From the NCBI GenBank assembly GCA_037576195.1, contig CM075102.1, forward strand, positions 32,298,745 through 32,362,744: DNA of 64,000 bases, written 5' to 3'. Positions 19,175-43,516 of this stretch are shown one piece after another. The position numbers and the translations under genes are program-made. A model generated the notes under the pieces. That model saw only the letters and a program-made list of their open reading frames with translations. It did not search any database and was not told the origin of the DNA. This DNA comes from Phytoseiulus persimilis (Eukaryota; Arthropoda; Arachnida; Mesostigmata; Phytoseiidae). Each line of letters opens with the position of its first letter. Within the stretch, counting starts at the first letter, position 1.

Positions 19175-19695
19175 CCAGCCGGCCTTCGGCCGACTGGAGT
19201 CGGCCACGCTGTGCGCGGTTGGGCGGCGTTCCGTGGCATCGAAGCACTTTTCACTTTCTTCACTGAATCAGCATCATGGTTTTGAAAAGTATGGTTGAAT
19301 TGGTCTCGTGATCGTTCCTCCAGATTCGGAGAAGTATGGTCAGATTGGTCTCGAAATCACCTCTCCAGACTTGGAAAAGTATGGTCAGATTGGTCTCGGA
19401 ATCACCCCTCCAAAGTTGGAAAGTAATGGTCAGATTGGTCCCGGAATCACCCCTCCAGAGTTGGAAAGTAATGCTCAGATTGGTCCCGGAATCAGCCCTC
19501 CAGAGTTGGAAAGTAATGGCCAGATTGGTCCCAGAATCACCCCTCCAAAAAGAATAGTCAGACTCGTACCGGAATCACCTCTCCAGACTCGGGAGAGTAT
19601 GTTCAGATTGGTCCCGGAATCACCTTCGTGTCTTCCAGAAAAAGTGCGGACAAACTGACAAACTGACAGACTAAGCCGATTATATATAGTAAGGA
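19175..19695 (-). mobile_element. Non-autonomous Helitron-like element, copy 1 (short)
   Basis: Read on the minus strand, it starts TCCTTACTATATATAATCGG (19695 downward) and ends with an 8-bp-stem hairpin (GGCCGACT/AGTCGGCC, 19188-19205), a 9-nt spacer and CTGG followed by T at 19174. This is the Helitron pattern: 5' TC, 3' hairpin, then CTRR, inserted before T. The inside is a short array of diverged 45-bp units (about 19308-19640). The same two ends bound copy 2 at 39415-42282. No replication-initiator or helicase coding is present. The expected host A before the 5' TC is a T here. Confidence 0.7.
19308..19640 (-). repeat. Diverged 45-bp minisatellite in Helitron copy 1
   Basis: About seven units of the type CTCCAGA.TTGGAAAGTAATGG (first 20 bases of a 45-bp period as read on the plus strand). 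Units differ from each other at many positions, unlike the homogeneous array in copy 2, which suggests this array is older or has not been recently amplified. Confidence 0.75.
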
Positions 19696-22600
19696 AATTT
19701 GGAGCGCTTCATCGTGCTTGGAAAGAGCTCGTGTTGTGGTTTGCACTTCAGGTCCTCGAAACCGACGTTTGATCGTTGAATCCTTCCTCCGGATGCTTCT
19801 GAAGCCCTTCTCGTGGATTGGGTATCAGCTTCTCGAAACTGACTCTGAAGTGCGTCTTGTCTTGCAGACGGTCCTGTACGCTCCAGACACTCGAAAAAGG
19901 TCTTGTGGATTCTCGAAGACGGTCTCGTAGGCGCTCAAGAACACTCGTATGCGTCAAATCATCTCTATAGACTCCAAAAATTATGGTCGAATTGACGCCG
20001 AAATCAGCCCCTTAGGCTCCGGAAAGAATTACCATATCGATGCCGGAATCTCCTCTGTAGACTCCTAAGAATGTGGTCAGATCGACCTCGAAATTCCCTC
20101 CTGAGCAGGCTCCAGCCCCTCATTCCCCCGAAGAGCGTTCCGCGTTATCCACGCTTTGTCCTCGGGAAACAGAGCGACTGATCTGATCGGCAGTCCACGT
20201 TCCCGCCTCGAGGGAGGGCGTGGGAATTTTCTTGCCCGCCACTCAATCGATTTTCTCACGCGATTGCGGGAGAACTTGCCGTGATTCTTCCATGGATATG
20301 ATCGTATCAGCCGTCGTTTTTGTCACGATCTCCAAATCGTGAAGTCGACTTATGAATTGGAGATCAGAGTTAGGGCTGCGTCTTTCAAGTCCATGTATTT
20401 TCATCCCGCCAATACTCATGAATCTGAAATACATTGTTATCATACATCATCTGTGATGCGATCTTTGTCACGGTCCGCTCAGGCTTCTCAGAGCCTCGTT
20501 CCGGAGACGGAGTGATCCTGACTTCGTTTCTAGAATGACGCTGGGCGCGAGAATCACTGGAAACTCCAGTGCTGTTGCGGTAGCCGCTAGCGTGGCGGCA
20601 GCGCCCTTATACCAGCCGCCAGCGCTGGCGAACGGATGGCTGAGTTGACGAGCTCGCTGGCTTCTGGTTTCTTGTTGTCCACCGGAGCCGGACGCAACAG
20701 TACCGAAACCCCGTACGTGGGTGGAGGATCTTGTTTGTTGTTGTGTGCATTTTTATTCAGTTACAAGTTATTGACCGAGCGCCTCGCACTGTGACGATAT
20801 GACAGGAAATTAGGACCCAAAGCGACTTCTACAAAATTCCGACATCAAATTAAAACACATCGGCTGCAACAAATACTCCTCCAACCCTGCAATTAATACT
20901 CGTCAGTACTGCGTAAAACCACGAAGCGGCAGGGGGGAGCTACGAGAATCACAACGTTTCACATGGAAAATCTACGAAGTGTCATGATGGAACAATATAC
21001 CTGTAGACTTCGATTTGCAGTCGAGATTTTTTGGAGGCGATTCCCATCCTCTTTGTTATCTTTCTGTTTCTTCTGCTTCATCTGTATTTTGTGTTCCTCG
21101 CTCTTTTTAACACCTCTCATCTTGACTACCTTCATCTGAGTTTTTTTAGCGACAGCCTCATCTCCCTTCCCTCGGCGTCGAGTATTCCCTCGTCTAGGGG
21201 TCCTAGTTTTTGATGTCCGAAGCTCCACAATGTCGGATATCGCAATGGCGATGTCATCGTCAAGTTGTATCGATGTGATTCCATCGCGGGGAGAATCAGC
21301 TGCGTTATATGCCAAGAAGAAATCAGTGTCTGAGTTTCATGTGAACTTTCGGCGCGAATTCGAGGAGCCATGCCGGGTTGGCGAGGAGGGAATACTTATT
21401 GGAGGCGAAGGGAACGAGATCTACAGCCGACGGTTCACGAAGCGTCGATCAGGTCAGCTCACCTCCAGGCGAAGATGGTCTTCTCGAGCTGTCCCCGCTT
21501 CTGCGACTTATTTTCTGAGATCTTCCGTTTAATATCGTGCGACCAAAGAGCGACTCATGCTCGCTGCTGTCATCAGTCGTCGTGCCTGTATTGTCTGAAT
21601 AACCCCTTCGTCTCTTGCGAGTCAGGGTATTACTCTTCCCGAGCATTAGCTGCCATTCATCCCTATGCTTCATTGTTGAGTTGGAAAAAATGTCTACTTC
21701 CTAGTGAAACTGACGGAGATTCCCGCCCAGAAGAGCGAGCTTTGTCATTGCGGCTGGGGATTCTCGCTCTAGCAACGAACGATGGAGCTGGCTCAGCTGT
21801 TGATCGATATCCCTCAGCAGGATGCTTCTGACAAAACGCCGTCCTCATTCTCTAGATTCTCCTCCGGAAGTCTCTCACCGTCTCACACGTCTGTTTTCCA
21901 GGTTATCGAGACGACTCTCGGCATCGGTTTTCTTCGTCTCATCTTCAAAAAAAAAAACACGAATAGAAACGGCAGCTTCGGTGGAAGGCATTTCGCTCGA
22001 ACTTCCCAATGATCCCCAGAAAACGAGGGATCCATTTTCCAGAAGTCATAGCTCTGACTCACTGCAGACCGATTTAAGGGATCACGGGGCGGGGAATATT
22101 CTGCACGCGCCTGCAGCAGAATCATACTTCGAGGATCCCATCTTGTGCCTTCATTGAGTCGGAATTTCGGCAGGCAGTATGGGCGTTACTTGCGAGGCAT
22201 GAGATTGCTTGCTAATCTGGTCGCAGATGGACATCCACTCTGGCGCAGTTGGTTACGTCAAGAATGAACCAGCAAAATTTCAGCTGAATCGTACTAATCG
22301 TTCCCCCGTTCCACCCACTTGAACCAGTCTCCGATGCCCGTGATCGTGTGGACTAGCACACTGAACGATCTCTTCCAGTCTCAGATATCCGATGTCCGTG
22401 ATCGTGCAGTGGGCGAGTCCACAAGGTCGAACGATCAGAATTAGTCTGATTCTGTAGGAATTCCTCCGAAAAATGCCTTCAGAGTATCCGACCTTGATGA
22501 CCCTTGCCTGATTCCGAGACCTTTTTTTTCTAGCGTGACACACGTTGCGAAGCTGGAATTGTCGACGCGCTTGTCTGATCGCGAAACACCGGAAGGGGCG

Positions 22601-23000
22601 TAGCTGGGCGTAGTTCCGCCTGCGGCGGAACTCCGAGATTCCGAGTGTGCAATGCCCGTGAAATTGGCCCGCGTATTCGCCCATTCCGCTAAATGAGGAC
22701 CTCCTCTCTCATGGGGGAGGTCCTCATGGATCACGATCTCGTCCAAAGCTCTTGAAGTCGACGTCCGAGGAGTGCACCAAACAGAAAGAGGTCTCGGGAT
22801 CCAGATTCGGGGAAAGAAAAGTGGAGGACAGGACAGGCTAGCCAAATACAATACATCTTTGAAAGCTCAAACTTAGCGCGAAAATGCGAGGCCTCAAGCT
22901 CAACTCCACCATCATGGTGTCTCGAACGAACATGGTCACTGACGTCGGAGATCGATGAATAACTTAGAAGCGCACCAGGAAGACGGCAGGAAAGATACTT
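19696..23000. other. Gene-poor repeat-derived region
   Basis: No supported gene. Further decayed units like the 45-bp minisatellite are visible at about 19965-20102 ('gactcc.aa.a.t.tggtc.gat'). A GC-rich palindromic patch lies at 20580-20660 (GCCGCCAGCGCTGGCG). A 118-residue Lys/Arg-rich open frame at 21315-20959 (-) lacks splice or homology support. Two imperfect ~75-bp repeats around 22320-22425 share CCGTGATCGTG. Confidence 0.4.
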
Positions 23001-23004
23001 TTGA

Positions 23005-24060
23005 GTGCAACAGAGAATAGAAACAAAATCAGGGGAAAGAACAGCCTTGATCCGACTGTCAAAATCCAACGCTGAAAGGCTGCCCAAGACAGGAAGGATA
23101 AAGATCGGATGGAAACTCTGCAGCGTGGCAAATGGTACGACGTCCCTATCTGCGAGGATTGTAGAGCGACAGAGGCTTTCAGTTCACGCTGTGAAGTAAG
23201 CGGACATCCGGCATACTCATCACTGTGTCCAAAGTATCCACCGATGATCCAGGCGATGCGAGATCGGTCGCGAAACGGAGGACAGCCAACTGAGTGTGTC
23301 GAGAATGTCGAGAACCGCGGGCCAGCAATCGGAAAGCCTACTGAAGCTAAGCTGCAAGAGAAGAATACAGGAAACAGGAGAAAGAAGTCTGAAGGATGGA
23401 TCACAACTCAAAACGGGAAGAAGATGCCGTCAGGAGACCTACAATGAAGATGAACATGAAGATAATACAGATCGATCTCAACAGGTTTAGAGCAGCACAC
23501 GCTCTCCTGGAAGACAAAGTCAGCCAGGAAAATATCAGTGTCTATATACTGAGCGAAGTTAACCGTCGAATATCCCGAAGAGAAGTTGGAAGAGACCAAG
23601 GATGGACTGCCGAAGAGTAAGGGGATACATCCATATGGATCACCCGTAACTGCTAAGAAGGTGTCAAGGAGCGGAAGACAGCTGGAGGTACTAACGAGGT
23701 GGCTCTCACCGAGACAACACACGCATCCTCAGCTGCTACTCCCCACCGAATCAAAATACAGGAGAATTCACTGAATGTATCGAAGCACTGGAGAATGTCG
23801 TGGAGGGAACAAGCGGAGAGCTTTTCGTCGCGGGAGACTCCAATGCGGCATAACCCGCCTAGGGAAGTGCTCGCAACACAAACAGGCAATGCACTGGAGG
23901 AGCTAATGGCACGGGTCGCACGTACTCAATGACAGCAGGACCCCCACATTCCGAAGAGGTGCACAGGACGCCTTCATCGATATCACAGCAGCGATAATCC
24001 CGTCCGGCATGTCAGGATGGACAATCACTGATGGACTCGAGTAGCTCAGCGACCATCTGT
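23005..24060 (+). mobile_element. Relic of an R1-like LINE (endonuclease region)
   Basis: Broken frames contain hallmarks of the apurinic-type endonuclease of R1-clade LINEs in order: KIIQIDLNRFRAAHALLE (about 23457), LFVAGDSNAA (about 23820), PTFRRGAQDAFIDIT (about 23945) and LSDH (about 24047). Stops and frame changes separate them, and no reverse transcriptase follows, so the element is dead and 3'-truncated or interrupted. A Cys-containing segment at 23109-23220 may be the remains of the preceding gag-like zinc knuckles. Confidence 0.6.
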
Positions 24061-25301
24061 CATCCCCATAGACTCAGGGAAATATGATCAGATCGATCTC
24101 GGGATCACCTCCTCAGACCCAGAAAAGTATGTTTCAACGATCACTGACATCACGTGGGGTTCTAGGCCACCCATTATATCCTCTCCTCGCCGCGTTGGAA
24201 GAATTCGTTGACCTGCGGGTCGAACAACGGCGTATGAGGGCAGACCCCCTTCCCTCTCGAAGCGAGTCACAAGCGCAAAGCAGCGCCGGTTACGAGATCG
24301 CAGCCGGGGAGCACACGGCGAGGGCTCCTACGGATGACAATTACATACCTACGACCCAAAAAGCTTCCGGAGACACAAGTTCATTTATTATTAAAAACCA
24401 TTACTCCTCGCATTTCAATCTCCTCATCTGCATGAAGTTTTCTTTGCTTCACTTGACCCGTATCGTGCTTTACGTATCGCTATGTACAATAGGGAAGCTC
24501 GCGGCTTTCACTGGCCGTCAGGAATTTGTAGAGCCTCAATTAATACAGCTTCGACTCTCTCGAACAGGTTCCTCATAGATGATGACTCCATAGACTTCTC
24601 CGAAATAACTTAATACTTTCCACTGTGTTTGGTTTTTGAAACCCATCCAATACGAGATGTCTTCAAAGGAGGAACCGTGGTGACTCCGCGACTGTGCAGA
24701 TATCTGCGCTATACTATGATCTTCCAGAGATGATTTGGGATCCAGAAGACGGCTCAATTGCAACGTGGTTCAGTCTAAGAGACCAAGAGCTCTTAGAAGG
24801 GCTAGTCCCGATCCGACCTTCGAAGTTGCTCCTTGTATTCCGGCTGTAATAATCGGAAATGACATTGTAGCTGATCTGCTAAGATGTGTCACAGCTTACG
24901 TCTCCGGCATCACTCGAAGGAGACTCAGTCCAGAGATCCAGAGTCGCTGCCCTTGACCGAAGCGTCCGTTTTGGGCGATGACGTCGTTTTCGTATCCTGC
25001 GATTCCATGGATCTGCAATTCGACTGCGTCAGAAATGACGGGTAGCCTGTTCTCGCTGCCCGAAAAGGGTTGGAATCTTCTGCTCGAAGGAAACCTCAAA
25101 GGCTAGTGAACAGAGTGAATGATTACCCGCTCTCTTCGACGTGATCGCTGTCGGCTGTGAGGTCTTTTGGCAGGAAGAAATGATACCTTTGGAAGAGACG
25201 AAGACCGCCAACGCTTCGAATTAGAAAACTCCCTTATACTCAGGACCCTCTATCAGAGAGGAGAACGAAGAATTAAGGCGTATTCATAAACTTCTCTGAA
25301 C
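24061..25301. other. No gene recognised; one decayed 45-bp-type repeat unit
   Basis: The bases at 24065-24135 resemble two decayed units of the minisatellite found in the Helitron-like elements (GACTCAGGGAAATATGATCA, then GACCCAGAAAAGTATG). The rest shows no supported open frame, RNA gene or repeat. The distal part probably includes the 3' untranslated region of GOPC, whose stop is at 25302. Confidence 0.35.
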
Positions 25302-28300
25302 TCACTTCAGACGAGCATTCTCTTTCTCGCGATCTACTTCTTTGTCGTCGTGCTTCTCCTCGTCGATCCAAAGGACTTCGAGCTCTACACTACCGTCTTG
25401 GCGACACAACACGTCAACGGCCTCGTCGTGAAGGGCATTCCGGATATCAACGTCGTTCACGGCTAGAATCGCGTCTCCAACGAAAAGTTGACCGGAACGC
25501 CAAGCAGCCATGTGCGGATGAACCTCACTCACCAATATGGGAACCCCGTGTTCTTTCCCTCCCTGGTGAATTTAATTATTGTTGAAGTACTCGTTTTTCA
25601 CTTCTCGAAGTATACTGCTAGAACCCAGTCCGAAATCCCCTGGAAATGCACGAGTAAGTTGAAGGGGCGATTCATACCGTGATCGAAATCCCGAGGCCTT
25701 CGTTGTGGGTCTTGTAGACGACAACTCTTCGAACCTCCCCAGAGGGAGGCATCCTAGCTGATCTCGCTCTTTCCTGTTCCAAAGCGTAGTGGTCGAGACG
25801 GGCTCTGCGGGAAATCATTGTTCAGTCATGAGATCCGTTCTGTGGCCTCGCCGCATCGGGTCCTCAACAACTCGAGCTGAAAAAGCGGCTTACCTGCAGG
25901 CCATTATAACGGTTTTGTGACGATGAAGACGAATTTCCGACTGGAGTTGGCACCATAGTCGATCTTGTTCCGCAGGTTTAAGATTCCCATTGAGGAGCTG
26001 GATTTGTTGGATCCTGCACACGAGAATTCACAAACCATCATCCGTGTCCTGCATTTGCATCGAATCCGAACCGACGGATGGAGCAGCGAGTTAGGTAAGA
26101 GCGGTGGTGACTCACCTGCCAGCCAATTCTTTGTCGAGGTACTTGGCCGCTAACTTGGCCCCCACAAGTTCACTCTCTGCGTTGATGAGGTTCTTCCTGA
26201 GTCTTTCGTTTTCTTGCCTCAGATAGTTGAGTTCTGACTTCAACCTTGCGTCCCGTTCCACTTCATCGAGAATCGACCTCATCTCCTCCTCTAATCGAGA
26301 CTGGATAGCTTGAGCGTCCTCGTCTGTGGACACTTTTCTCTGCCGGGACGCTTCAAGCTGTGCAGCCTGCAACCTGGAGATCAACGCCCGGGTCTCTTTC
26401 TCTGCGACGACTAGGGAAGATTCGGAGGAGAACAGCTGGGATTTGGTTTCGTCGAACTGCTCCTGGAACAGTATATAGAACAGATTATCACCGCTCTTCG
26501 TTAGACCTGCCGGTCAACAATCAATGATGTCCTCCGGCGGTTTTTCCCCTTTCTCGTGTTCATCGTGTCGGCTCTGTCGGATCTTTCTTTCATCGCCAAA
26601 ACGTTAATTGGTGTTTCCACATCCTGTAGAACATTTCATGATCCGTTTCGATCCGCTTACATTCTCCACTTCACAATGCTGTCTGTTGGAGCTCTCACGA
26701 TTCTTTTAATATCAGTGTCCGTTCTAGTAGCCGAGACCCGGGCTATGGCGGGTGCGTTCAACTTCAACACTCGGCTTGGATCTAAGCAAGATGAAGAAGA
26801 AACTCAACAAGCAGCCGTGCAGTTCAAGGCTGCCGGATACCCCCGTCAAGAAGTTTCCCAATTCGTAAGTGACCTTTAATTCTCACTCAGAGACAATGAT
26901 CTGATAGAGCTAAGGCCCTAGGGGTTGTGCATCATCGGTCGACGTAGAAAGTTCGAGCAGAGATGAAAACGATGATTCCGGCGCTCCATGAGTTCGCCAG
27001 TCTACCTCTACCGACGTTTTAAATGATGTGGCCCTCGAGTAATGCAATACGATGCAGAGGAAATAGTCCAGACCCTTAGTAATAGAGGACGCGTAACCAG
27101 TACAACGTGTTCATCTGTCCCCGAAAGTTCACTTGGAGGGCGTGCATGCTGGTGAGTTTGTTCTCGAATGAGTGTGCGGCTGGATGGGGAGATGGAGACG
27201 GTCAATAGGTGACAGATCCGGAACAAATCAAACCTGATGAACACGCCGCTTCAGAACCGCTACACTCAGCTACCATCATTCCAGCCAGTAATAGACCGCA
27301 CAGCCGGATTCGAAGACAAACTGAAGACGCTAGATCTTTCAATTTCGAAATTCCAAACCTCGGTTGAGTATATCACTCAACAGTTGGGGAGGCGACTCGA
27401 AAGTATCGAAAACAAATTGGCGAGGATAGAAGCCACAACGGATGTCCAGCGTATCGCGAAGCAGGTAATCCAGAATTCGACTCCCAGAACTCCTTCCAAC
27501 TTGGAATATTCTGACGGTCTCTATTACGAGCGGAAGAACGTTTTCGGATTTCAGCAAGACCAGTCAACGCATCTGAACACAAAGCTGGACGTGATCAACG
27601 AGAAATTATCAACACGACTCTCGACCATCGATGGTAAAATTGACGCCAAACTCGAGAGATCTTGGACTAAACTGGATATGCTAAGCCACGGCTATGACAA
27701 GCAATTCGAAGATCTCATGGGCCGGGTGATGAAGCAGGACACGAAACGAGACACTGAGTATCAGAGGTGAAGAACTTGACAGACACAGAATTTGTCGGGT
27801 GTCCTTGTCGCGGGAATGCACCAAAGAAAACTCTTTCGGCACCACCAACAGATCGATCCAGAAGCTTGAAGTCGTCGAGACCCTGGTGCGATCGATGGGG
27901 AAAATGATTGTGGACTCATTCGGAGAAGGGCGTAAAATGCGTCTCCATCAGCAACAGAGCTCGTCTGATTCCGAGCCCGACTACGCGATCGTGGAAGGAA
28001 TTTACACTCGGCTCGACAGGTACAGGTCTTCCGAATCGATTCGGAAATTTCTTTGCGAGATCTTGTAGATTCTACAACGGGTTATCCAGCCGAGCGCAAT
28101 CTATGTTGAAGACTCGAAATTATTGCAGAATCATAAACGATACTGTGGTCAACAAGGCCAAATGCGAAGTTGCGAATGTGACCGAAGAAGTTGAGACTCA
28201 ATTCCGCGCGTATTTTACAAAACTCATGGCTGCCATGCAGGACATCCGAGATGAGGTCGGGAACAGTACGATCAGAATCGATGTGAGTCAGCCGGTCGTT

Positions 28301-31059
28301 TTGATTCTCATTTGGAATATCAAGTCAAGGATGCGCGATCGGCTCATGTTCACGGTTCCAGGGCGATGACAGATGCGCGACAAAAGGAAACGAATCGTAC
28401 AAGGAAGAGCTTGCCAAACTGCGACGCGACCTTGAGGCCATCCTGAGTAGCTCCGAACAGCAGAACAGGTTTCACTTGAAAACAAAAGCCTCCCTAGCTC
28501 GAACCCGAATTTATTGATCCAGATTCTCGTCGGCTTCAAGAAAGTCGTAACTTGAATGGATTCCAGGGATATGGGCGAAGCGCTTTCGGTCGTCGGACGA
28601 ACATTCGAACAGAAGCTGCAGCACCTCTATCAAAATGTGGCACAGGCCTTCAAGGTCCTCCAGGAATCTCAAGGGAAACTCATGGAATCCTGTTCACTCC
28701 AGGTGGTGGGTGTCAACAAATGTTCATTTGAAGCGAGAACGGTCCAATCCACTGAGCTTAGCCCCGGATTTTTGCAACTACTTCCGGGCTTATTACACGA
28801 ATAGGAATTCTCGTAGATTCAACAAGTCAAAACTCTTTCTCAAGCAGGCCGATCGGCAACAGAGTGACTCGACTCCGGTTATTCAGCAGGCGGAGTTATT
28901 GGCGGCTCTGAGGAATACAACTTCAGACATATCAACTTCCTTTGAAAAGAGTCTCACTCAACTCAAAGACTACGTCGACGGTGTCATCAACCATGGAGCA
29001 ATGAGCAACTCAAACTCTAACCACAACAGCAATCATAATAGCAACGGCAACAGCAACAGTCACAACCTCAACTTTGAAGGACCATTTGCCCACAGCAGCA
29101 AATCCATCGAGTATGGATCTAGGTACCACAGACGGTTTTAAAGAAAGCCCACTCCTGTCCTTAGTGTAAGACATGTTCATTCGCGATTCGCACTTGTAGG
29201 TAAGCGAAGGTCGCAATCGTCGAGAGCTCTCCAATGTCCTCGGAAGCGTCGCTCGCGGCCAGTTCCGAAACGAGCGCGCAGAGGACCGCTTAGAGTGAAG
29301 CAGGTCTCACGCGAATTCCTGCCTACAATTGATTTTCTATTCCACAGCTCGGCTCGGTCGGGCTTGAACAGCCCTGGGAGAGAGATCAGCGACGAGCTCC
29401 ACGAGCTTCATGATCTGCCTCAGACCGAGGACCCGAAAGCAGATTTCAATCCGCGCCCACCGATGAGGTACGGTTAGATGCGGGTTCACATCAGCGAACG
29501 AGCGACAGCCTGTGTCATTCAACAACCAAGGCGTTGATATTCCCCGCTCGAGTTTTCATACCCAAACTTACGTAAACAGCATAATTTTTCGAAAGAAGAT
29601 TTTTAGTAACAACAACCTTCCAAAGTTCACTCCGAACATGAGTGAGCCGCTCGAGAGGTGCACGACGTCGAGCATCGTCACCATCGCTACTTTTTGAACA
29701 ATGGTTCAACACTAATGAAATATGATATGATCCCAAGTACCCAAACATCGACAGAATTACGACGACGTCGACTGATTTTTGTGACGAGAAAGAGTTTAAT
29801 AAAGCTTATTCGTTTATTTTCCCAAATTTAACCCCAGATATTGATCGATCACAGACTCGATAGAGATATCGATCGATCACAGACTCGATAGAGATACTGC
29901 CGTGGCAACCTAGAGATTTTAGCCTTCAACTGGGACAAACCTGCAGTTTCACGTTGAGGTCACAAACGACTAGCGTTTTATGCACGAGTTGACCGAATGC
30001 GGCGCTCAAGGCGGTCAATTTTTCTCTCCCTTGGAAACAAAGAGGCTGGTGTTCTTCTTCGAGATCTCCGAGCATCGAATCTAGCTCGATATACACCTGG
30101 AATTTGAATGCTGGAGGTAAGTTAGCTGTGAAGAGGTCTTAGTGATCTTCAGCTATTCCAAAAAAAATTTAGCCGCGTACACGACAGGTAGTGCGGTAGA
30201 ATATTCGTTCGTTGAACCCCGAGAAGGTCAACGATCTCATCATCTGGTGCATCGTGTACTCATATGAGTACGAGCATCTCGAGATAACGACACTTTCCTG
30301 AATCCGGTCAAAACCCTGGTGGCACTCCACAGGAAATCCTCGAGTCCTCGAGACTAGGCGGACTAGCTCTGACGAGCTATTTGGAAGGGAGTCGGCCAGA
30401 TTCAAGAAGCAATCCCGACAGCTGGATAGCCCAGTCGAATAAGATCGACGCAGAGCACACTCTAAACGGACTTTCTATGCTACAATGTCGATTTGACAAA
30501 GATGATAGGGCAGGTATCAACCTCTAGGAGTCGGCTAACAGGAGAACACAGCAGGCTTTCCCGTTAGAATGGCTCGTCGGGAAGGACGGACCTAGTGGCT
30601 CATGCGGATAGCTTGACAGAAAGAGAAGTTGCATGAGGGTCGTTTCTGGGAGTGAGTGTCCCTTCCGATAAAAAAAAAACACTCTCCCGAGTAGTGATTG
30701 AAAGCGAGGAAATCCAGTGATCGGTCCATTCAACTGGATGCGTGAGAACTCCAAAGCCTTCTTGACGGAGGATTCGAATACCATAGCGAGCTCTGTTATA
30801 GTCTGCAGTGTTGTCGCAGGTTATCTCAGTCACTCAATCTGTGTTCCAGCAAGCTATGAGCCGGATCATACTCTCCTTCCCCAGCTCCAAATCTGCCTTA
30901 GATGTTTCCAGAGAAGATCCGGCTTTCGTTACGATTGAATCCAATGAGCATCCTCGCTTTCTGGAAAATCAAACCCACCTTGTCGAATTCCTTCTCTAGT
31001 AGCTGGACCCATTTTAGCGCAACAGGGCCCGGAGTGGCTGTTATTTCTGGCGATCCCAT
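25302..31059 (-). CDS. GOPC: GOPC (Golgi-associated PDZ and coiled-coil protein) orthologue
   Basis: Six exons, 31059-30979, 30096-29941, 26462-26116, 26013-25894, 25804-25678 and 25562-25302, sum to 1092 nt or 363 residues (human ~454-462). In order: [11 protein letters not shown] at the N-terminus; a segment like '[18 protein letters not shown]' (exon 2); a coiled coil at about residues 80-195 ending [16 protein letters not shown], a near-diagnostic GOPC string; RIQQIQLL and [20 protein letters not shown]; then a PDZ domain at about 259-341 whose ligand-binding loop GLGISIT|GG is split by an intron. The family tethers membrane cargo at the trans-Golgi, the coiled coil binding Golgi partners and the PDZ binding C-terminal tails. 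The C-terminus ends Glu/Lys/Asp-rich. Exon phases all agree. Intron 2 (26463-29940) contains another gene on the plus strand. Confidence 0.92.
26676..29477 (+). CDS. Unrecognised secreted coiled-coil protein nested in GOPC intron 2
   Basis: Proposed exons: 26676-26864, about 27274-27766, 27789-28019, 28129-28282, 28362-28468, 28567-28702, 28848-29122 and 29348-29477, about 565 residues. Residues 1-23 are a signal peptide ([20 protein letters not shown]). The middle is helical and rich in charged heptad-like sequence (for example [20 protein letters not shown]), so probably oligomeric coiled coil. N-glycosylation sites and four or so scattered Cys occur, and an Asn/Ser-rich tract lies at 29005-29065. 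The stalk resembles those before fibrinogen-like domains, but no such domain is present. It lies entirely inside an intron of GOPC on the opposite strand. Weak points: the exon 2 acceptor (27273 or 27291) and the 22-nt intron at 27767-27788, which is too short for normal splicing. Confidence 0.6.
29839..29898. repeat. Two-copy ~30-bp direct repeat
   Basis: GATCGATCACAGACTCGATA occurs twice about 33 bp apart within GOPC intron 2, close to the GOPC exon 2 donor. A simple tandem duplication with no evident function. Confidence 0.7.
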
Positions 31060-31483
31060 TCTCAGAGCATCGTGGAGTCGGGCCTCACGACAATTTGAAA
31101 CACCTCGACTCCTACACAGGGAAATGCTACTTATGATACACAGCTGTACAAGCCCAAACGCCAACACCACCTGATCAACAGAATTGTGTCGACACGGCCG
31201 TGAGAAATCGAGTGCTGTGTGGTACCTTAACAGTTGGAAGAAAATGCGGAGCGCGGAGGGTATGAGCTCATCGGATGAAGTCTTGCGCGGCGCCAACCCA
31301 TCTGAAGTCAGAAGCCTTCTCGGAAGATCGACTTAGTAATTTCCCGTGGATTTTTCCCAAGAACAGCTGGAGGAAGTCCCACGTTGCCATCGTAACGATT
31401 CGGGCACAGATCCTTGGCTCGTTGAGCGACATCTTTCGAGACCACCACCTGTGATTGGAGTAAACTAACGTTGTGATCCGAGT
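31060..31483. promoter_or_regulatory. Compact head-to-head promoter region of GOPC and the NSE2-like gene
   Basis: The GOPC start codon (31059, minus) and the NSE2-like start codon (31484, plus) are 424 bp apart and divergent. Both promoters must share this space unless upstream untranslated exons exist. No TATA box is obvious, as expected for housekeeping promoters. Confidence 0.5.
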
Positions 31484-32580: not shown

Positions 32581-33420
32581 TCTCATGGAATGTTCCTTGT
32601 GACATGGACTAGCGTATGGTACATAAATTCAGAAGAATATCTTGTTGACAGGATCGAATTCTGACATTCTGACTGCTACGCATTCTGACCCAGCAGCGGA
32701 ACATTGGAACTTTACAGAAAGCCAAAGTACTGAGGTGGAGTGGACCGAGTTTGTCATTACGGGGCATTGAAACTGTATGCGGCGTACAACTTCGAAGAAG
32801 TCAACTCTCGACGGAGTTTTCAGACAGCGTGTCGTGTTTCAGAAAGTCAATGAGTCCCGCAACGAAACAAGGCGTGGAGAAGTTTATTGTTTTCGAGTTT
32901 GCCTTGTTATTTGAAGTCCAGATTAATCGGTGTACTTACAGAGATCCCGCACGGGATTCGTCGAATAGAGCGTCCGAAAGGAGGAGTTCCACACTCAAGT
33001 TTTCATGTTCTTGTCGAAGTGAGATGCTGATCTTAGGCCTCGGAGTCGGGAATGAGCCAGTTGAGGAGATTTTCCAGAGCGGTGAGCGTTTGAACATTAC
33101 GAGAGGGGCCTCGTCAAGTTGGAGGCCGCGCAGGGCGGAACTCGGAGATTCCGAGGATGCCGCTCCCTCCCTCTCCCCTCAAGGGACTGCATAAGCTCTT
33201 GTGCTTGGCCTCCTACAGCCAACCGACTATACGGGAAATATTCCAGACTATAGGTATGGGGTGTTGAGAGTTTATTATTATATCTCCACCGCGTTTTCAG
33301 GCTTCGTGATGTACTTTAGAGTTCAACCCTCCGAAATTTGAGGATCGCAGTTTCATGTAACCCTCCATGTGAATGCTACTGGATCGTTCGTTCTCAGTGG
33401 AGAAACTCTCAAGATTTGGC
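32581..33420. other. No gene recognised
   Basis: A 147-residue open frame (32751-33194, +) has no recognisable motif. The string GGCGGAACTCGGAGATTCCG (33134) also occurs nearly unchanged at 22624, so at least part of this stretch is a dispersed repeat. Confidence 0.35.
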
Positions 33421-33437
33421 ACGCGCAACTGACTCAC

Positions 33438-33612
33438 ACTTGAGAACACATAGTACACGGAGAGCTCGAGCTCCGGGAAACTCCTCTGAGAACTGGTACA
33501 GCTCATCGTCAGCGTCGTGAGATCCGCGAGCAGAAGACTGTGCTCCCACGCAGGTATCCAGCATGAGCTGCAGAAGCTCAAGCGGATATCCTTCGACGAG
33601 TGCACCCATCTC
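33438..33612 (-). CDS. Possible single exon of an unidentified minus-strand gene
   Basis: An open stretch bounded by a good acceptor (AACGCAG|GAGATG) and donor (AAGT|GTGAGT) encodes a residue string beginning EMGALVEGYPLELLQLMLDT and ending ARALRVLCVLK, which looks protein-like rather than random. I cannot name the family and could not find convincing neighbouring exons; a LINE relic lies immediately upstream. It may be an orphan exon or chance. Confidence 0.25.
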
Positions 33613-33649
33613 CTGCGTTGAACAGCCACCAGAGGAACCACCTCAAATA

Positions 33650-34233
33650 GAGGATTACTCATTCCACGGAAGCAATCGAATCGGTCTCTCAGGCACAAAA
33701 TCATCGGGCGGAACCGTGATACTTATTCGGTCCGACCTGGGTGAACCGCGCTGGATGGAAAAAGATAACAATTTTATTGCGGTCTACGTGGCTATAGCCC
33801 ACCTCCGGGTGAATAATGAACAAGTCAACGAGATTTGTAACTTTATTCAGAGCCGGAAAACGGGAACAGCAGAATTCTGGTGGGAGGCGACATGAACGCC
33901 CGCCTACCAGAACTAGACGGGAGAATGGATGGGCGTGGTAAACTCCTCAGAGAGCTTGCCAGCGAAAACAACCCAACTATTCTGAACCTAACGAAGAAAT
34001 GTCGCGGCAAGATCACCCGAAGATAGGGAGGAATCGCCTCAACAATCGACTATTTGTTGTACAATTCTATAGCCTTCAAAGGAGTGGAGAACATGCACGT
34101 AGACGAGAAAAGAGAAATCTTCCACTGGAGTGACCACAACCTGATAACCATACAAATGGGGAAACAAAAAGGTGGAGGTTCACCCAAGAAGGTATGAGTG
34201 CGTACTCTGAGACCGAGAAAAACTGCAACTTGC

Positions 34234-34271
<38 letters not shown>

Positions 34272-36690
34272 AGGGGGCCATGGCCCCCACCCAAAACTCT
34301 TCGATGATATTAGGGAGGGTGGATTATACCCTACTTTGATGGACGAAAAAGTTCCACAAAGATTCAGTCTTATCAGGAAAATTCTCACAGGTTTGAGAAC
34401 CATGTTGATTGCGTCATGAAAATCTCGAGACGATGATCATCATCATCATCGGCATCATCATCACATCCTTGCCCCCCCCCCCCCCCCCCCCCCCCCAAAA
34501 AAAAAGCTGGGTACGCCCCTGTGACAGATATCCTTGCAGCCAAAGGCGAGCTGAGAAGACTCCCCAGCTATAAGTATCTGCTAAGCACCCTTCAGGATGC
34601 AATGGCACAGAACACTAAACTCGTAACTCTAAGCCCGGGAGAGAAATTGTTCACACCAGAGCTATCGAAACTAACGAGGCTCAGGAATGAACGGAATCGG
34701 GAATGGAGAAGAGCGAGGAAAATCAAACTCGACGACAGAGAAGCGGAAACACGATTCCGGCTGGCATAGGATGCTGTACGGAACGAGGTGACACGCTAGC
34801 TCGAAATTGAAGACCATAAAGTTTACGATCGAATCATGGATGCACTTAGACAAGCGTGATCCAAAGCTTTCTGGGACCACATCGAGAGAGGGGAAAGGAA
34901 ACCCCCGAACGGAGCCCAGCTGATAGATGAGAGTGACAACATCTTTCAAACACCAGAGATCGCGTCTTATCTCACTCTAGTAGCAAAAAGCCTGTTAGGC
35001 GCTAGGGAGCAATCACAAGGAGATGCAACCCGCCCCCTAACCAGGCAACCGGTAGAACTGACCATGACGGGGGATATGATGAAGGCGACCTTCATGTCGA
35101 TTCCAGCCTCCTCCGCTACTGGCCCAGACGAAATACCTGCCAAAGTCCTCAAATCGGTGGACGAGGTTGGATATGAATACATATCAAGCACCTCCAATGC
35201 GATTCTAGAAGGCAGACACGAACTCCCTGGGAAAGGGAGGGAAGGAAGAGCATCCTTGATAGAAAAACCAAACTCTACCAAAGGGAAACGCACAACATAC
35301 AGACCCATTACAGTGTCGGACGTCCTGTACAGGGTTTTCGCCAAAATTTTGAATGAACACACCGCTGCTCGAACTCCTCAAATGCATGTACGAGGACACA
35401 CAGGTGACCTTCCGATGAGGTGAGTCCGATGAAGTATCCGTACCAGTTGTGTTTCGCCAGGGCTGTCCGCTCTTCGTACCTCTCTTCTGTCTATACATCG
35501 CGAACCTGGAACGCGAACTTCTTGCTACAGAGATCGGATTCAGAGTTCCGACTGGAAAGAAGGGGGCAACAAGCCCCTCAGAATCCCAGGATTGCTATTC
35601 GCTGATGATATTATCTCAATGGCGAATAACTCAACAGATATGGAAAGACTCCTCGAGGTAACAACGAATTTCGGGGACAAAATGTCCATCAAATTCAACC
35701 CTCAGAAGAGCGGCGTGATGATATTCTCTCGACCACACGACGACCATATCGATGGTAGAGACCTCAAAATACGAGGAAATTCAAAACGAATGGTAGAATT
35801 CTACAAATATCTTGGGCTCGATCTATCGGCAGGGGAATACTATCTCACCAAACACTGGGAGAATATGTTCACCAAAGCCAACCTAGCTAGCCAAAGACTC
35901 AATTCGAGAACCCATTGGAGCTTCAATAGATTGGAAGTGACAAAAACTCTCTGGAAAGCCACAGCAGTCCCTCAACTCACATATTGCAACTTAGTGATAA
36001 CCATGCCAAAGAGGCTAGGAAACCCCATCGAGGTCAGGCAAAGAGAGGCGGGACGGTGGGCCCTTGGCATACCACACTCCACCGTAGCCAACGTAGCGAA
36101 CGGAAGGTGAATTAGGCTGGAGCTCGTTCGATGCCAGGGAGACCACAAGTGAACTGATGTACTTCGAGAGGATAAAACGAATGGACCCACACAGATGGCG
36201 GAAGCTTTTCCTCCAGTCTACCGAAACAACGAACACCAGGTTCGAAGCGACGGAGAGACTCAGAAAACTGAGAGCGCAATTCGACCTGAGTGACTTCGGA
36301 ATCGCCAGAAACACATCAGGACAGCCAATGTGGAACACATTCCGCAAAGACCTTAGGAAAAAGGTGCAAGATAAACTGGACTCTACATGGAAACAAGCCG
36401 CGCATTCCAAGTCCACATTGGCGTGTTGTCGTCAACACAAGGAGTCCAGAGGTCTCCAACAAAGGCTGTACGACAACACGCGCGGAAGCCAGATTCTAAC
36501 GCCAGATCTAACGAGAGCAGGGATGTTAACCATCCTGAAGAAGCACCGGAACCGCGACCCTTCCATCGACATAAAATGCCCAAGGTGCGGCAGAATCGAA
36601 ACGGACAGACACGTGGTCCTGCGATGCTAGGAAGATTCTTTCTCGGAAACTTCTCTAATAAACTGGGAGAGACAAGATCTGTGATTACAA
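33650..36690 (+). mobile_element. Decayed non-LTR retrotransposon (LINE), endonuclease to C-terminal zinc motif
   Basis: In order: endonuclease remains (GDMNARL at ~33890, ASTIDYLL at ~34037, HWSDHNLITIQ at ~34121); a linker; reverse transcriptase (SATGPDEIPAKVLK at ~35116, YRPITVSDVLYRVFAKIL, VVFRQGCPL, catalytic LFADDI at ~35595, KSGVMIFS, YKYLGLDL); then RWALGIPHSTVA, WSSFDARE, and a terminal CPRCGR..TDRHVVLRC zinc motif (~36578-36628). Multiple stops and frame changes (for example TGA at 36107) make it inactive. The 'GWSSF.ARE' block is what I remember from LINEs of ticks and other chelicerates. A foreign insert interrupts it at about 34239-34523. Confidence 0.85.
34236..34523. mobile_element. 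hAT-like fragment with poly-G and poly-C runs, inserted in the LINE
   Basis: The LINE reading frame (...ETEKNCNLP) stops at a ~31-base G run (34239-34269) and resumes (TDILAAKGEL) after the sequence CTGGGTACGCCCCTG, whose complement CAGGGGCGTACCCAG is a typical hAT terminus (34508-34522). A ~22-base C run lies at 34475-34496. GGGGCAAGG just inside the G run is the inverted copy of CCTTGCCCC before the C run, so the homopolymers are part of the inverted repeats. The left terminus is missing, perhaps through assembly collapse at the G run, and no target duplication is visible. Confidence 0.6.
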
Positions 36691-38334
36691 TTCAACTAAC
36701 CTCTGTAATAAAAATGGTTCATATGATGTATATGAAAGATCAAATATATCCAATCCAACTTCCGAAAAACTGAAGCCGTTTCTGCTCGACTCCGATCTCT
36801 CCCTTGTTGATGTGAGGTGGTGCATTTTCAAGATCGCGCGTCGACTTCCCATCAGGGAGCTGCATTGGCATTAAGAGACCCCGACTTGATTTTTCGGATG
36901 ATTTTCCATTCGGTCGAGACACATGTACACTTTTTATACAGTTCTCTTGCCGTGTGTTAGATCTGCGGCCTCCGATCCACCTTTAGCAAACTTCTTACGT
37001 TCCAAGCTCTTCAGATTCAGTTTATTTGAGCTCCATGAAAACGAAGCCGTCTCGAGTCTCACAGAGCCGTGTGTCCAAGCAGCGGAGTTCTATAACTCTC
37101 TAATTCACAGTGGACTCCGCTAAACGGGAACCCCGCATAATCGGATCATCCGCTCATGCGGATCGGATGTTCGATTTCCCGATTTTCCGCATAGAAATCG
37201 CTCCGGTTAGGATCATTACGTGCCGCGACGTTGACGACATTCCGCCGCAGAACATTCATCAGTAGGGGAGGATCGTGTTGTCTGCGATTTCCACGGAACC
37301 TCTGTGAAGGAAGTATCGTATGCTCGTTTCTCAGCAGCCATTCACTCGAGTTCGCATTTGATCAGGACATTGGAAGGGGGTGGAAAACCTAAGCTGATGT
37401 CACTATGCGCTTGATTCTTATGTTGGCGTACGGATTTCATCGACTTCATAGTCGAAAACTGAGGCGAATACTACTCAGTCGCAAAACAGGAATCCGGAGT
37501 AAAAAGTCGGACGGCGGCAAGCACGCATCGCTTTCGCGAGGGCCACAGGGAAACCAAGGAATTCTCCACCTGTGGAGAATGTCAGGCATGCCTCAGCGCT
37601 GTACTGATTGTATTCAAAATACAGTATTTCCTTCTTTTTCGCTCCAGCTCCGATGGGATGGCCGCACTCAAGTGGATGTTCTCGCAGAACCCGAATCATG
37701 CCGCTTCCAAAATACTAATCATGAAAGATTCTCAGAGCTGTTTTCGCCACCGGGACCGTTTCCCGACCCCCGCAGGTTTGATCACAATCCACCAGGCACG
37801 GGAAGTTTCGCGGTGAGAGTCCTTTTGCTTGAATTTTTCAGAGCTTCCGGATCTCGACCCGTCTCGTTCGGCTAAATATTTTCGTTTTCCGAGCATCCAC
37901 GGCTTCGAAATAGAATATTGCATACGAATAATGGTTTCCGAGCGACTACGTCGTTTCGCGATTCTAAACGGGATCAATCTTGCGAGCAACTTGAACTTAG
38001 TGAGAAACAGTTTACTCATATTTCTTGAGGCTGCAACATGGTCAATCGGGGTGTCTGATAGTTCTACCATCAAACCGACTCCTCAATGACAAGGATTTGT
38101 ATTCAACTGGAGAGATCAAATTTGAAAAGCGCGCAATTCCATTGGAATGGTGGCGCTGTGGCAAGCTAGAAAAGTCCAGAAAGTTTCTAGCCGGTAGCAT
38201 AAAAGTGTTGGGCGCCAGCCTATCGTGACCAATCGCGTGCGAGCACTCTGCGGTCTCGGTGAGCTTTGAATTTGAAAAATTTGATTCGGGTTCCGGGGCT
38301 TCCATAAAAATTCACGGTTGTCGGTGTGAAAAAG
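36691..38334. other. No gene supported
   Basis: Several open frames of 60-156 residues occur on both strands (for example 37405-37875 +, 37829-38089 +), none with recognisable motifs. The last part must hold the promoter of the small heat-shock protein gene; I saw no unambiguous heat-shock element there. Confidence 0.35.
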
Positions 38335-39009
38335 ATGGGTGGAGGCAATGCGGAGAAAGATGCTACCGGGGGAAACTCAGGCCAACGACACGAACAAGGA
38401 GGTCAAGAAAGTAAGTCTTCGAGCGAGCGAGAGAGACAAGACAATCAGCAGGACCGGCAAGACGGCCGTCATGTCCAACAAGAGCATTCCTCGTGTCCTC
38501 CGATGCACCGAGAACCGGAATCGTTGTATCCTTTCATTGTTTGGTTCGATGTTCGAACGCGGAACATGCAAGATGACCTCCTCCGTAGACGTTTTTTCGA
38601 CGTTCCACAAGTGGCACACTTCAACCCGAACACAAGATCAAGATTCTTAGATGCGTTGATCCCTGCTGACGAGGCGGGCTCAAGCTTCGTGTTTCATGTG
38701 AACCCGGATAAGAATCGAGTTGAGTGTGAGCTGAACTTGGGACGTGAGGGATTCTTCAGGCCTGAGGACGTGGAGTTGAATGTGATGGACCGCAACGTCG
38801 AGCTGGTAGCTCGCAGAGAGATGAAATCGGAAGACAAGTACACTCTGAGAGAAGTTCGTCGCATCCTCACCGTTCCCCAAACTGCAGATATAGAGAAACT
38901 GAATGCTGAAATGAATCCTAATGGGAGGATAATTCTGTCAGCTCCTCTGTTGGAACCTCTCGAGAAGAGATCGAACGGACCCGCAGAGATCAAAATAAAC
39001 AAGAAGTGA
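38335..39009 (+). CDS. Small heat-shock protein (alpha-crystallin family), intronless
   Basis: A single open frame of 224 residues starting MGGGNAEKD. The first ~60 residues are Gly/Ser/Gln/Glu-rich and disordered. The middle SLYPFIVWFDVRTRNMQDDL resembles a family N-terminal region. The alpha-crystallin domain runs at about residues 118-205: VECELNLGREGFFRPEDVEL, NVELVARREMKSED.Y.LREV, then the terminal ILSAPLLEP, which matches the family's GxLxIxxP-like end. Such proteins form oligomers that hold unfolding proteins until Hsp70 refolds them. The 26-residue C-terminal tail is basic and lacks a clear IXI motif, unless LLEP substitutes. An upstream in-frame start two codons earlier (GTG/AAA) is not used in animals, so the ATG at 38335 is chosen. 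Five kilobases from the Hsp70 gene. Confidence 0.8.
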   Translation: MGGGNAEKDATGGNSGQRHEQGGQESKSSSERERQDNQQDRQDGRHVQQEHSSCPPMHREPESLYPFIVWFDVRTRNMQDDLLRRRFFDVPQVAHFNPNTRSRFLDALIPADEAGSSFVFHVNPDKNRVECELNLGREGFFRPEDVELNVMDRNVELVARREMKSEDKYTLREVRRILTVPQTADIEKLNAEMNPNGRIILSAPLLEPLEKRSNGPAEIKINKK

Positions 39010-39414
39010 GCTCCGACTTCTATTGTGTAAGACAGCCATTTATCAAGGTTATTGAAACGCAGCATCCGATCTTTGATGTAACTCTGCAGGGGTGCCATCG
39101 CGAAGACAGAGTCCATATCCTTGAGGTGGTGCTACAAGGGTAAACTATACGGGTTGAACGGCGAACAGCTTCATGGGCTTATACATTCAACGTTTCTAAC
39201 CAAAGAAAAGTCTCAGAATCACATGTTACTAGCATTCGCTGGAACGATCTCAGGCCGACGGCACGCGGCCGGATAGAATTCCGGGAGCTCCGATTTCACG
39301 CGGCGAGATTCGCCTCAATATTTGGGAGTAGGGATCGCAAGAAAAAACGGCGAGGGGAACCGTGGTTACGACGCGAACCCGCAGGTGCCCGCCACTGCGG
39401 CGGGTACCGCTTAA
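39010..39414. other. Spacer between the small heat-shock gene and Helitron copy 2
   Basis: No open frame of note. Contains GC-rich patches at 39256-39300 and 39395-39405 (GCGGCGGGTACCGC). It probably includes the 3' untranslated region of the heat-shock gene, though no AATAAA was seen. Confidence 0.35.
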
Positions 39415-42282
39415 TCCTTACTATATATAATCGGCTTAGTCTGTCAGTTTGTCAGTTTGTCCGCACTTTTTCTGAAAGACATGAAGGTGATTCTGGGACC
39501 AATCTGAACATATTCTCCCGAGTCTGGAGAGGTGATTCCGGTACGAGTCTGACTATACTTTTCAAAAGCTGGAGGGGTGATTCTAGAACCAATCTGACCA
39601 TACTTTTCAAAACGTGGAGGGGTGAATCTAGAACCAATCTGACCATACTTTTCAAAACGTGGAGGGGTGAATCTAGAACCAATCTGACCATACTTTTCAA
39701 AACGTGGAGGGGTGATTCTAGAACCAATCTGACCATAGTTTTCAAAACGTGGAGGGGTGATTCCGAGACCAATCTGAGCATTACTTCCCAACTCTGGAGG
39801 GGTGATTCCGAGACCAATCTGAGCATTACTTCCCAACTCTGGAGGGGTGATTCCGAGACCAATCTGAGCATTACTTCCCAACTCTGGAGGGGTGATTCCG
39901 AGACCAATCTGAGCATTACTTCTCAACTCTGGAGGGGTGATTCCGAGACCAATCTGAGCATTACTTCTCAACTCTGGAGGGGTGATTCCGAGACCAATCT
40001 GAGCATTACTTCCCAACTCTGGAGGGGTGATCCCGAGACAAATCTGAGCATTACTTTCCGACTCTGGAGGGGTGATTCCGAGACCAATCTGAGCATTACT
40101 TCTCAACTCTGGAGGGGTGATTCCGAGACCAATCTGAGCATTACTTCCCAACTCTGGAGGGGTGATTCCGAGACCAATCTGAGCATTACTTCCCAACTCT
40201 GGAGGGGTGATTCCGAGACCAATCTGAGCATTACTTCTCAACTCTGGAGCGGTGATTCCGAGACCAATCTGAGCATTACTTTCCAACTCTGGAGGGCTGA
40301 TTCCGAGACCAATCTGAGCATTACTTCCCAACTCTGGAGGGGTGATTCCGAGACCAATCTAAGCATTACTTCTCAACTCTGGAGGGGTGATTCCGAGACC
40401 AATCTGAGCATTACTTCTCAACTCTGGAGGGGTGATTCCGAGACCAATCTGAGCATTACTTCTCAACTCTGGAGGGGTGATTCCGAGACCAATCTGAGCA
40501 TTACTTCCCAACTCTGGAGGGGTGATTCCTGGCTCAATCTGAGCATTACTTCCCAACTCTGGAGGGGTGATTCCGGGCTCAATCTGAGCATTACTTTCCA
40601 ACTCTGGAGGGGTGATTCCGAGACCAATCTGAGCATTACTTCTCAACTCTGGAGGGGTGATTCCGAGACCAATCTGAGCATTACTTCTCAACTCTGGAGG
40701 GGTGATTCCGAGACCAATCTGAGCATTACTTCCCAACTCTGGAGGGGTGATTCCTGGCTCAATCTGAGCATTACTTCCCAACTCTGGAGGGGTGATTCCG
40801 AGACCAATCTGAGCATTACTTCTCAACTCTGGAGGGGTGATTCCGAGACCAATCTGAGCATTACTTCTCAACTCTGGAGGGGTGATTCCGAGACCAATCT
40901 GAGCATTACTTCTCAACTCTGGAGGGGTGATTCCGAGACCAATCTGAGCATTACTTCTCAACTCTGGAGGGGTGATTCCGAGACCAATCTGAGCATTACT
41001 TCCCAACTCTGGAGGGGTGATTCCGGGCTCAATCTGAGCATTACTTTCCAACTCTGGAGGGGTGATTCCGGGGTCAATCTGAGCATTACTTTCCAACTCT
41101 GGAGGGGTGATTCCGGGCTCAATCTGAGCATTACTTTCCAACTCTGGAGGGGTGATTCCGGGGTCAATCTGAGCATTACTTTCCAGCTCTGGAGAGGTGA
41201 TTCCGGGGTCAATCTGAGCATTACTTTCCAACTCTGGAGGGGTGATTCCGAGACCAATCTGAGCATTACTTCCCAACTCTGGAGGGGTGATTCCGGGGTC
41301 AATCTGAGCATTACTTTCCAACTCTGGAGAGGTGATTCCGGGGTCAATCTGAGCATTACTTTCCAACTCTGGAGGGGTGATTCCGAGACCAATCTGAGCA
41401 TTACTTCCCAACTCTGGAGGGGTGATTCCGGGCTCAATCTGAGCATTACTTTCCAACTCTGGAGGGCTGATTCCGAGACCAATCTGAGCATTACTTCCCA
41501 ACTCTGGAGGGGTGATTCCGAGACCAATCTAAGCATTACTTCTCAACTCTGGAGGGGTGATTCCGAGACCAATCTGAGCATTACTTCTCAACTCTGGAGG
41601 GGTGATTCCGAGACCAATCTGAGCATTACTTCCCAACTCTGGAGGGGTGATTCCTGGCTCAATCTGAGCATTACTTCCCAACTCTGGAGGGGTGATTCCG
41701 GGCTCAATCTGAGCATTACTTTCCAACTCTGGAGGGGTGATTCCGAGACCAATCTGAGCATTACTTCTCAACTCTGGAGGGGTGATTCCGAGACCAATCT
41801 GAGCATTACTTCCCAACTCTGGAGGGGTGATTCCTGGCTCAATCTGAGCATTACTTCCCAACTCTGGAGGGGTGATTCCTGGCTCAATCTGAGCATTACT
41901 TCTCAACTCTGGAGGGGTGATTCCGAGACCAATCTGAGCATTACTTCTCAACTCTGGAGGGGTGATTCCGAGACCAATCTGAGCATTACTTCCCAACTCT
42001 GGAGGGGTGATTCCTGGCTCAATCTGAGCATTACTTCCCAACTCTGGAGGGGTGATTCCGGGCTCAATCTGAGCATTACTTTCCAACTCTGGAGGGGTGA
42101 TTCCGAGACCAATCTGAGCATTACTTCTCAACTCTGGAGGGGTGATTCCGAGACCAATCTGAGCATATATTTCAAAATCAGAATGCTGAACCAGTGAAGG
42201 GAGAGAAAAGTGCCTCTATGGCAGAGAGCGCCGTCCAACCGCGCGCAGCGCGGCCGACTCCAGTCGGCCGAAGGCCGGCTGG
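39415..42282 (+). mobile_element. Non-autonomous Helitron-like element, copy 2, expanded by minisatellite
   Basis: Starts after a host A with TCCTTACTATATATAATCGG and shares about 50 bases here with copy 1. Ends with the hairpin GGCCGACT-CC-AGTCGGCC (42252-42269), a 9-nt spacer and CTGG at 42279-42282, followed by T. These are Helitron hallmarks (A|TC...hairpin...CTRR|T). The middle is almost entirely a 45-bp tandem array. Compared with copy 1 (521 bp, opposite strand), all the extra length is repeats. It has no transposase of its own and would need an autonomous partner elsewhere. Family name cannot be given without a database comparison. Confidence 0.78.
39500..42165 (-). repeat. 45-bp minisatellite, about 59 units, with higher-order structure
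   Basis: Unit on the plus strand: GGAGGGGTGATTCCGAGACC, then AATCTGAGCATTACTT and CCCAACTCT (45 bp). Read on the minus strand it encodes 15-residue repeats of the form GSNAQIGLGITPPEL, open across most of the array because 45 is a multiple of three. A second frame is open too (MLRLVSESPLQSWEV type), so openness is not evidence of a protein. Variant units (GAGACC, GGCTC, GGGTC at the same place) recur in patterns: 41641-41800 equals 42001-42160 (8-unit shift), and rare variants at 40291 and 40361 recur exactly 1170 bp (26 units) later. Confidence 0.95.
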
Positions 42283-43352: not shown

Positions 43353-43516
43353 GATAAAGAACTTAACAGATAACGAACTTTTTGCATAACGAACTTGACA
43401 GATAACGAACTTGGCAGAAAACGAACTTCTCAGATAACGAACTTGGCAGAAAACGAACTTATCAGATAACGAACCTGGCAGATAACGAACTCATCGGATA
43501 ACGAACATGGCAGATC
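43353..43516 (+). repeat. 16-bp minisatellite, about ten units
   Basis: Units of the form GATAACGAACTTGGCA and GAAAACGAACTTCTCA repeat every 16 bases, with alternating variants. It ends directly at ATCCTTACTATTTATG (43512 on), which resembles the 5' end of the Helitron-like elements. Confidence 0.85.

Follow-up and report, generated by a model that had tools for sequence, protein, structure and literature searches.

We found that two repeat-bearing elements in the genome of the mite Phytoseiulus persimilis are very probably non-autonomous canonical Helitrons, mobilised by the RepHel protein of relatives like the gene-bearing locus L029, that carry a fast-changing minisatellite array as a passenger. 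Both lie in the window, the 64,000-nucleotide stretch of DNA that we analysed (assembly GCA_037576195.1, contig CM075102.1, positions 32,298,745 to 32,362,744, forward strand). A preliminary description of the window had proposed a Helitron identity, and this is upheld by the termini, by insertion at A^T, by empty sites free of target duplication (10 of 24 copies) and by a RepHel element with the same ends. The junctions, empty sites, same-ended partner and target motif were all observed directly. The family is represented in the window by the following features (a slash marks an element boundary).

39415-42282, plus strand: long non-autonomous Helitron copy (A/TC...CTGG/T), 2868 bp, exact end matches, flanked by A and T
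39415-39485, plus strand: 5' end of the long copy ahead of the array, which begins at element base 72
39486-42173, plus strand: 45-bp minisatellite array of the long copy, 59.7 repeats by wrap-around alignment
42174-42282, plus strand: 3' region of the long copy with hairpin-forming sequence and CTGG terminus (3' 30-mer matches; fold)
19175-19695, minus strand: short non-autonomous Helitron copy, 521 bp, exact end matches, T before TC and T after CTGG
19625-19695, minus strand: 5' end of the short copy ahead of the array, which begins at element base 72
19241-19624, minus strand: 45-bp minisatellite array of the short copy, 8.7 repeats by wrap-around alignment and 7.4 by Tandem Repeats Finder
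19175-19240, minus strand: 3' region of the short copy with hairpin-forming sequence and CTGG terminus (3' 30-mer matches; fold)
19957-20102, minus strand: decayed units of the 45-bp repeat, no recognisable ends, score 66 (maximum of 34 across 6 window shuffles)
24060-24135, minus strand: decayed unit or units of the 45-bp repeat, no recognisable ends, score 54 (maximum of 34 across 6 window shuffles)

The two elements were recovered in opposite orientation at the coordinates first given for them. Their common 5' end, put at about 50 bp, proved longer, with 126 of 130 aligned columns identical between the long and short copies, and their final 31 bases are identical. The interiors are built of the 45-bp repeat, initially counted as about 7 and about 59 units; Tandem Repeats Finder gave 59.6 copies of the unit at 39486-42166 in the long copy. 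The isolated decayed units noticed near 19965-20102 and 24065-24135 also scored above the shuffle maximum.

The long copy sits between an HSP20-like frame (38326-39009, plus strand) and an uninterrupted HSP70 frame (44331-46229, minus strand), beyond which lies a Ras-family frame (49462-50160, minus strand). A degenerate 3'-end-like stretch with 5 mismatches to the family 3' end (18907-18936, minus strand) adjoins the short copy. The window also holds a run of 34 G (34236-34269), a run of 25 C (34472-34496) and a separate 16/32-bp tandem repeat (43350-43515).

We searched the 181-Mb assembly (127 contigs, four of 28 to 55 Mb) with both end sequences, a check that the preliminary description had suggested. 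The same assembly yields 112 matches to the cuticle domain PF00379, whereas 14 control genomes yield none, in keeping with an arthropod source. The 5' 24-mer matched at 402 places when up to 2 mismatches were allowed; for the 3' 30-mer, with up to 3 allowed, there were 355 matches. Both reversed controls gave 0 matches, so the repeats of the window are not due to chance. Nearest-end pairing on the same strand used the 100 of 402 5' places and 99 of 355 3' places among the matches listed, and it yielded 36 rows with 31 distinct 3' ends. These 31 paired elements among the matches listed measure 510 to 11,030 bp (median 2,786), lengths that are approximate because each end was paired with the nearest one on its strand; the longest may have mispaired ends or a gene inside. 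At L005/L006 (C2, about 7.67 Mb), element copies lie in tandem with a 536-bp period, and the sequence after CTGG, TAGTAAGGA, is that of the first nine 5'-end bases in reverse complement. L064/L065 and L066/L067, 6 kb apart on C1 (32.70-32.71 Mb), have a common 70-base 3' flank and differing 5' flanks.

The junction scan left out loci L009-L020, removed repeats of one flank, included the inner starts of tandem 5' ends and accepted 3' ends with up to 4 mismatches. Of 50 distinct 5' ends, 49 have A directly before TC, and the one that departs is the short window copy, with T. Of 43 distinct 3' ends, 41 continue after CTGG with T and 2 with C. Seven members of a narrower set of 34 5' ends bear one extra TCCTTA; once this was stripped, the preceding base was A in 32 of the 34 and T in 2.

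We joined 70 + 70 flanking bases for 24 copies and searched the genome for empty counterparts in two packed queries, scoring 40 of 518 candidates in one and 40 of 267 in the other. An uninterrupted site spanning the junction was recovered for 10 copies (L002, L047, L049, L051, L052, L062, L064, L072, L080 and L082), and none showed a target-site duplication, which answers a check raised in the preliminary description. Among the candidates scored, the remaining 14 copies, including both window copies, had no junction-spanning empty site. Seven of the sites restore A^T directly (L064 and L082 at 84% and 82% identity). The empty sites of L051, L062 and L080 (L098/L105, L100 and L099, respectively) lack six bases, the extra TCCTTA. 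The additional hexamer is thus element DNA, and the 5' terminus varies in hexamer number. With TCCTTA assigned to the element, two of these three sites are A^T and that of L051 is T^T, giving 9 of 10 A^T and one T^T overall. Another member of the family carries the copy L044 within its 5' end (TAAGCCGA^TTATATATAG).

The insertion sites share a downstream motif. ATA occurs within +5 to +12 in 32 of 38 distinct 3' flanks, whereas of the 7,937 A^T sites that the window contains only 6.1% show it. It begins at +7 in 24 of the 38 flanks; the interval +15 to +22 gives 2. Among the loci left out of this set were the L031/L032/L034/L037 group and the tandem loci L005, L006 and L084-L087. Helraiser likewise prefers AT-rich targets, most strongly on the 3' side of the site (accessible text of PMC4778049), but the register is sharper in the mite family, with ATA from +7. 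As a property of the Rep protein, the motif A^T(n5)ATA lends itself to testing.

The 3' terminus had been described as an 8-bp stem, a 9-nt spacer and CTGG/T. These parts exist as sequence in the window 3' ends, with a 2-nt loop, but folding instead predicts a 10-bp stem with a 3-nt loop that ends flush on CTGG, plus a 6-bp stem upstream. The predicted 10-bp stem and the 8-bp stem are mutually exclusive, and each is complete in 39 of 45 ends, which leaves conservation neutral between them. Covariation does not choose either, since the 3' ends hardly vary. The hairpin of Helraiser is placed 11 nt upstream of the 3' end (PMC4778049, in the part available), whereas the predicted stem of the mite family ends on CTGG.

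A candidate autonomous partner, of the Rep/helicase kind that the preliminary description had proposed to look for, was identified from its sequence at L029 (C3:24444400-24454300). This locus has the family 5' end, about 55 array units, an open RepHel frame and the family 3' end. The frame is 1951 residues from stop to stop, with the first methionine at 80, and contains Helitron_like_N (PF14214), PIF1 (PF05970) and Pif1_2B (PF21530) in one frame. The protein aligns with Helraiser (PDB 7lcc) at 1126 bits over L029 residues 488-1940. In this alignment, PHCH and KYLYKYVYKG of L029 stand opposite PHAH and KYLFKYIYKG of Helraiser. We take these to be the HUH and tyrosine motifs. Compared with the long window copy, L029 matches at 124 of 142 aligned 5' columns and at 47 of 48 bases of the 3' end, falling to 89 of 117 columns over the last 110 bases. 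L029 need not be the direct parent, as the 3' parts diverge beyond the last 48 or so bases.

The PF14214 profile matched 101 times in the genome, and among the 13 regions fetched, L029 alone combines both ends, the array and a long open frame. Two loci resemble its 3' portion (the 3' part of the gene and the 3' end): L030, 96% identical over 3.7 kb with a frame of 704 residues, and L035, 91% over 5.4 kb with a frame of 467 residues. At L039, the 5' end is closely followed by the leader with, by eye, a few decayed unit-like stretches, and we found no recognisable 3' end there. The array may therefore have grown from, or been lost from, an L039-like leader. A second RepHel group (L031, L032, L034 and L037) also bears the 45-bp unit. 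All four have a window-type 3' end upstream of the gene, followed by the same sequence, and L032 has another end of CTAG type after the gene. We considered TCATAAAAATACAG as the 5' terminus of a second tandem family and rejected this, as the pattern search returned only 4 places. These are the four loci where TCATAAAAATACAG follows the common internal 3' end, and we take it as internal to this RepHel group.

The unit core of the repeat matched at 55,418 places when up to 3 mismatches were tolerated, with 0 in the control. These places add up to about 2.49 Mb, or some 1.4% of the assembly, and are more than 402 5' ends would be expected to supply. We also inspected four array loci on C1 (4.03, 9.0, 12.07 and 12.29 Mb), picked among the first 100 unit-core places listed. 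At the edges reached, which did not include every edge, none had a clean family end, and one degenerate 5' end with 5 mismatches was seen. Much of the 45-bp repeat may thus lie in other Helitron families or in arrays stripped of their ends. Both observations would suit ordinary minisatellites in duplicated, immobile DNA. For the window elements we regard this reading as extremely improbable, because flanks vary from copy to copy, ends are exact to the base and empty sites were recovered for 10 of 24 copies. It is rejected for copies with both ends and can hold for arrays without them.

The central tandem repeats themselves could point to Helentron-associated elements of the HINE/DINE-1 kind, in which such repeats are best documented (accessible parts of PMC7492417 and PMC4067079). 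However, the same sources give TT or T-rich targets for Helentrons, and the mite family has A/TC at 49 of 50 and CTGG/T at 41 of 43 junctions. The Pfam matches to the L029 frame (E up to 0.001) include no endonuclease domain, and the protein aligns with a canonical Helitron, Helraiser. We therefore reject a Helentron or HINE assignment, which is very improbable given the A^T junctions, the A^T empty sites (9 of 10) and the partner protein. A terminal-inverted-repeat transposon or MITE with target duplication is also rejected, as no duplication was found in 10 empty sites.

Unit counts per copy, another check suggested at the outset, ranged from 8.3 to 59.7 repeats in 18 sequenced copies (wrap-around alignment). 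Copies with identical ends can differ strongly inside. L043 and L048 show no difference over 70 + 105 end bases, yet they have 34 and 38 unit rows and only 10 of 34 aligned units are identical; L049 and L053, again identical over 70 + 105 end bases, have 37 and 46 rows with 9 of 34 aligned units identical. The array thus changes fast. In 6 of 18 copies the first 5' unit types follow a common order, and the interiors differ. Exactly repeated blocks of 10, 8 and 6 units occur in L052, L049 and L053, whose best block lags are 14, 8 and 3 units, respectively. The mean unit distance is 0.065 within copies, against 0.080 between them. Of 349 central units, a fraction of 0.378 have their nearest unit in their own copy, compared with 0.092 under permutation. 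We rejected a higher average conservation of edge units relative to central ones, as the mean distance at the first four 5' positions was 0.13-0.16, against 0.080 for central units of different copies. Unit blocks are therefore gained, lost or exchanged at a higher rate than the ends accumulate mutations.

Several same-direction 5' ends stand in series at five loci (L029 with L088, L084, L085, L086 and L087), the L088 chain with L029 running from C3 24444287. An A precedes all 10 inner 5' starts in these loci. Neighbouring same-strand 5' ends at most 1.2 kb apart form 7 pairs among the 100 exact ends listed, and random placement predicts 0.04. Random placement is therefore rejected as the source of the tandem 5' ends, leaving aside clustering in repeat-rich DNA. 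The tandem ends look like re-initiated rolling-circle replication. Plant Helitrons with multiple 5' ends and a single 3' end have been attributed to aberrant rolling-circle replication (PMC12628747, in the part accessible).

These tandem ends, their close same-strand pairs, the plant precedent and the end-identical copies with different arrays all suit a reading in which arrays are rebuilt during transposition, by re-initiation and single-strand template switching, and not by exchange or slippage after insertion. However, exchange or slippage after insertion would produce copy-specific block duplications just as readily. In addition, 3 of the 10 inner starts come after repeated TCCTTA, and 3 of the remaining 7 have T as the reference base that follows the A; such starts could have arisen by ordinary A^T insertion. 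We consider such rebuilding possible, though on the unlikely side. A broader proposal would have transposition re-deal the array through re-initiation at A/TC and template switching, each jump receiving a new array and the A-preceded tandem 5' ends being the footprint. Since several RepHel groups carry the 45-bp unit, the array would also serve as a place where Helitron families exchange ends. This broader proposal is tentative, and we think it rather unlikely.

We favour the passenger reading. By analogy with Helraiser, RepHel from gene-bearing relatives such as L029 would nick at A/TC, peel off one strand and halt at the hairpin and CTGG end. The strand would then be joined into an A^T site, preferably one with ATA about 7 bases downstream, the enzymatic joining being modelled on Helraiser. 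Non-autonomous copies retain the L029-type 5' end and array without the gene, and within the element unit blocks are gained, lost or exchanged at a rate well above that of mutation in the ends. We infer that the array most likely rides along as a passenger, because copies with 8 to 60 units are all complete elements. The preliminary description had the element seeding minisatellites that expand after insertion. Its mobility stands, but in L029 the array follows the 5' end and precedes the RepHel frame. An insertion therefore brings the array along and does not seed it anew. As for expansion, end-identical copies do differ strongly in their arrays, but gain is not separable from loss here, nor is change after insertion from change during transposition.

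DINE-TR1 reportedly belongs with the Drosophila rolling-circle elements that bear tandem repeats. Tandem repeats in the Helitron superfamily are already known, chiefly in Helentron-type elements, and some have become abundant (accessible parts of PMC7492417, PMC4067079 and PMC3833285 for the former, and of the latter two for the abundance). DINE-1/HINE elements are rolling-circle elements with tandem repeats, as in the mite family, but have TT targets, Helentron partners and other unit lengths (PMC4067079, in part), and the Helitron-derived tandem repeat of Drosophila virilis has a unit of 154 bp (PMC3833285, in part). Like the mite elements, Cg_HINE of the Pacific oyster is non-autonomous, rolling-circle, dispersed in the genome and built around a central tandem array. 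It is, however, of Helentron type with oligo-T targets, and its units are 140-180 bp, mostly in arrays of five or fewer with a maximum of 29, compared with 8 to 60 units of 45 bp in 18 copies of the canonical mite family (available text of PMC7492417). The bat element Helraiser/Helibat1 resembles the mite family in its 5'-TC, CTRR-3', A^T insertion, 3' hairpin (differently placed in the predicted fold) and alignable RepHel; the accessible portion of PMC4778049 mentions no minisatellite for it. The tandem truncated Helitrons of plants (Xiong et al. 2016, as cited in the accessible part of PMC12628747) have 5' ends in series and a single 3' end, like the L029 chain, but there the truncated element is itself the tandem unit, whereas the 45-bp unit of the mite is a separate internal repeat.

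A canonical Helitron that has an open RepHel frame and also contains a minisatellite of tens of units is less usual, and we found no account of one in the literature covered, which consisted of titles and abstract openings with few subscription journals. The authors of the oyster study were unable to link Cg_HINE to autonomous elements (PMC7492417, in the part available), whereas the mite family includes a gene-bearing copy that shares its ends and array, tying a tandem repeat to a gene-bearing canonical Helitron. The scale of the repeat is given by its unit core, about 1.4% of the genome. Base-exact ends and empty sites date the copies, and the minisatellite records the rate and block pattern of tandem-repeat change, which makes the long-standing question of how a transposon gives rise to satellite DNA testable in this family.
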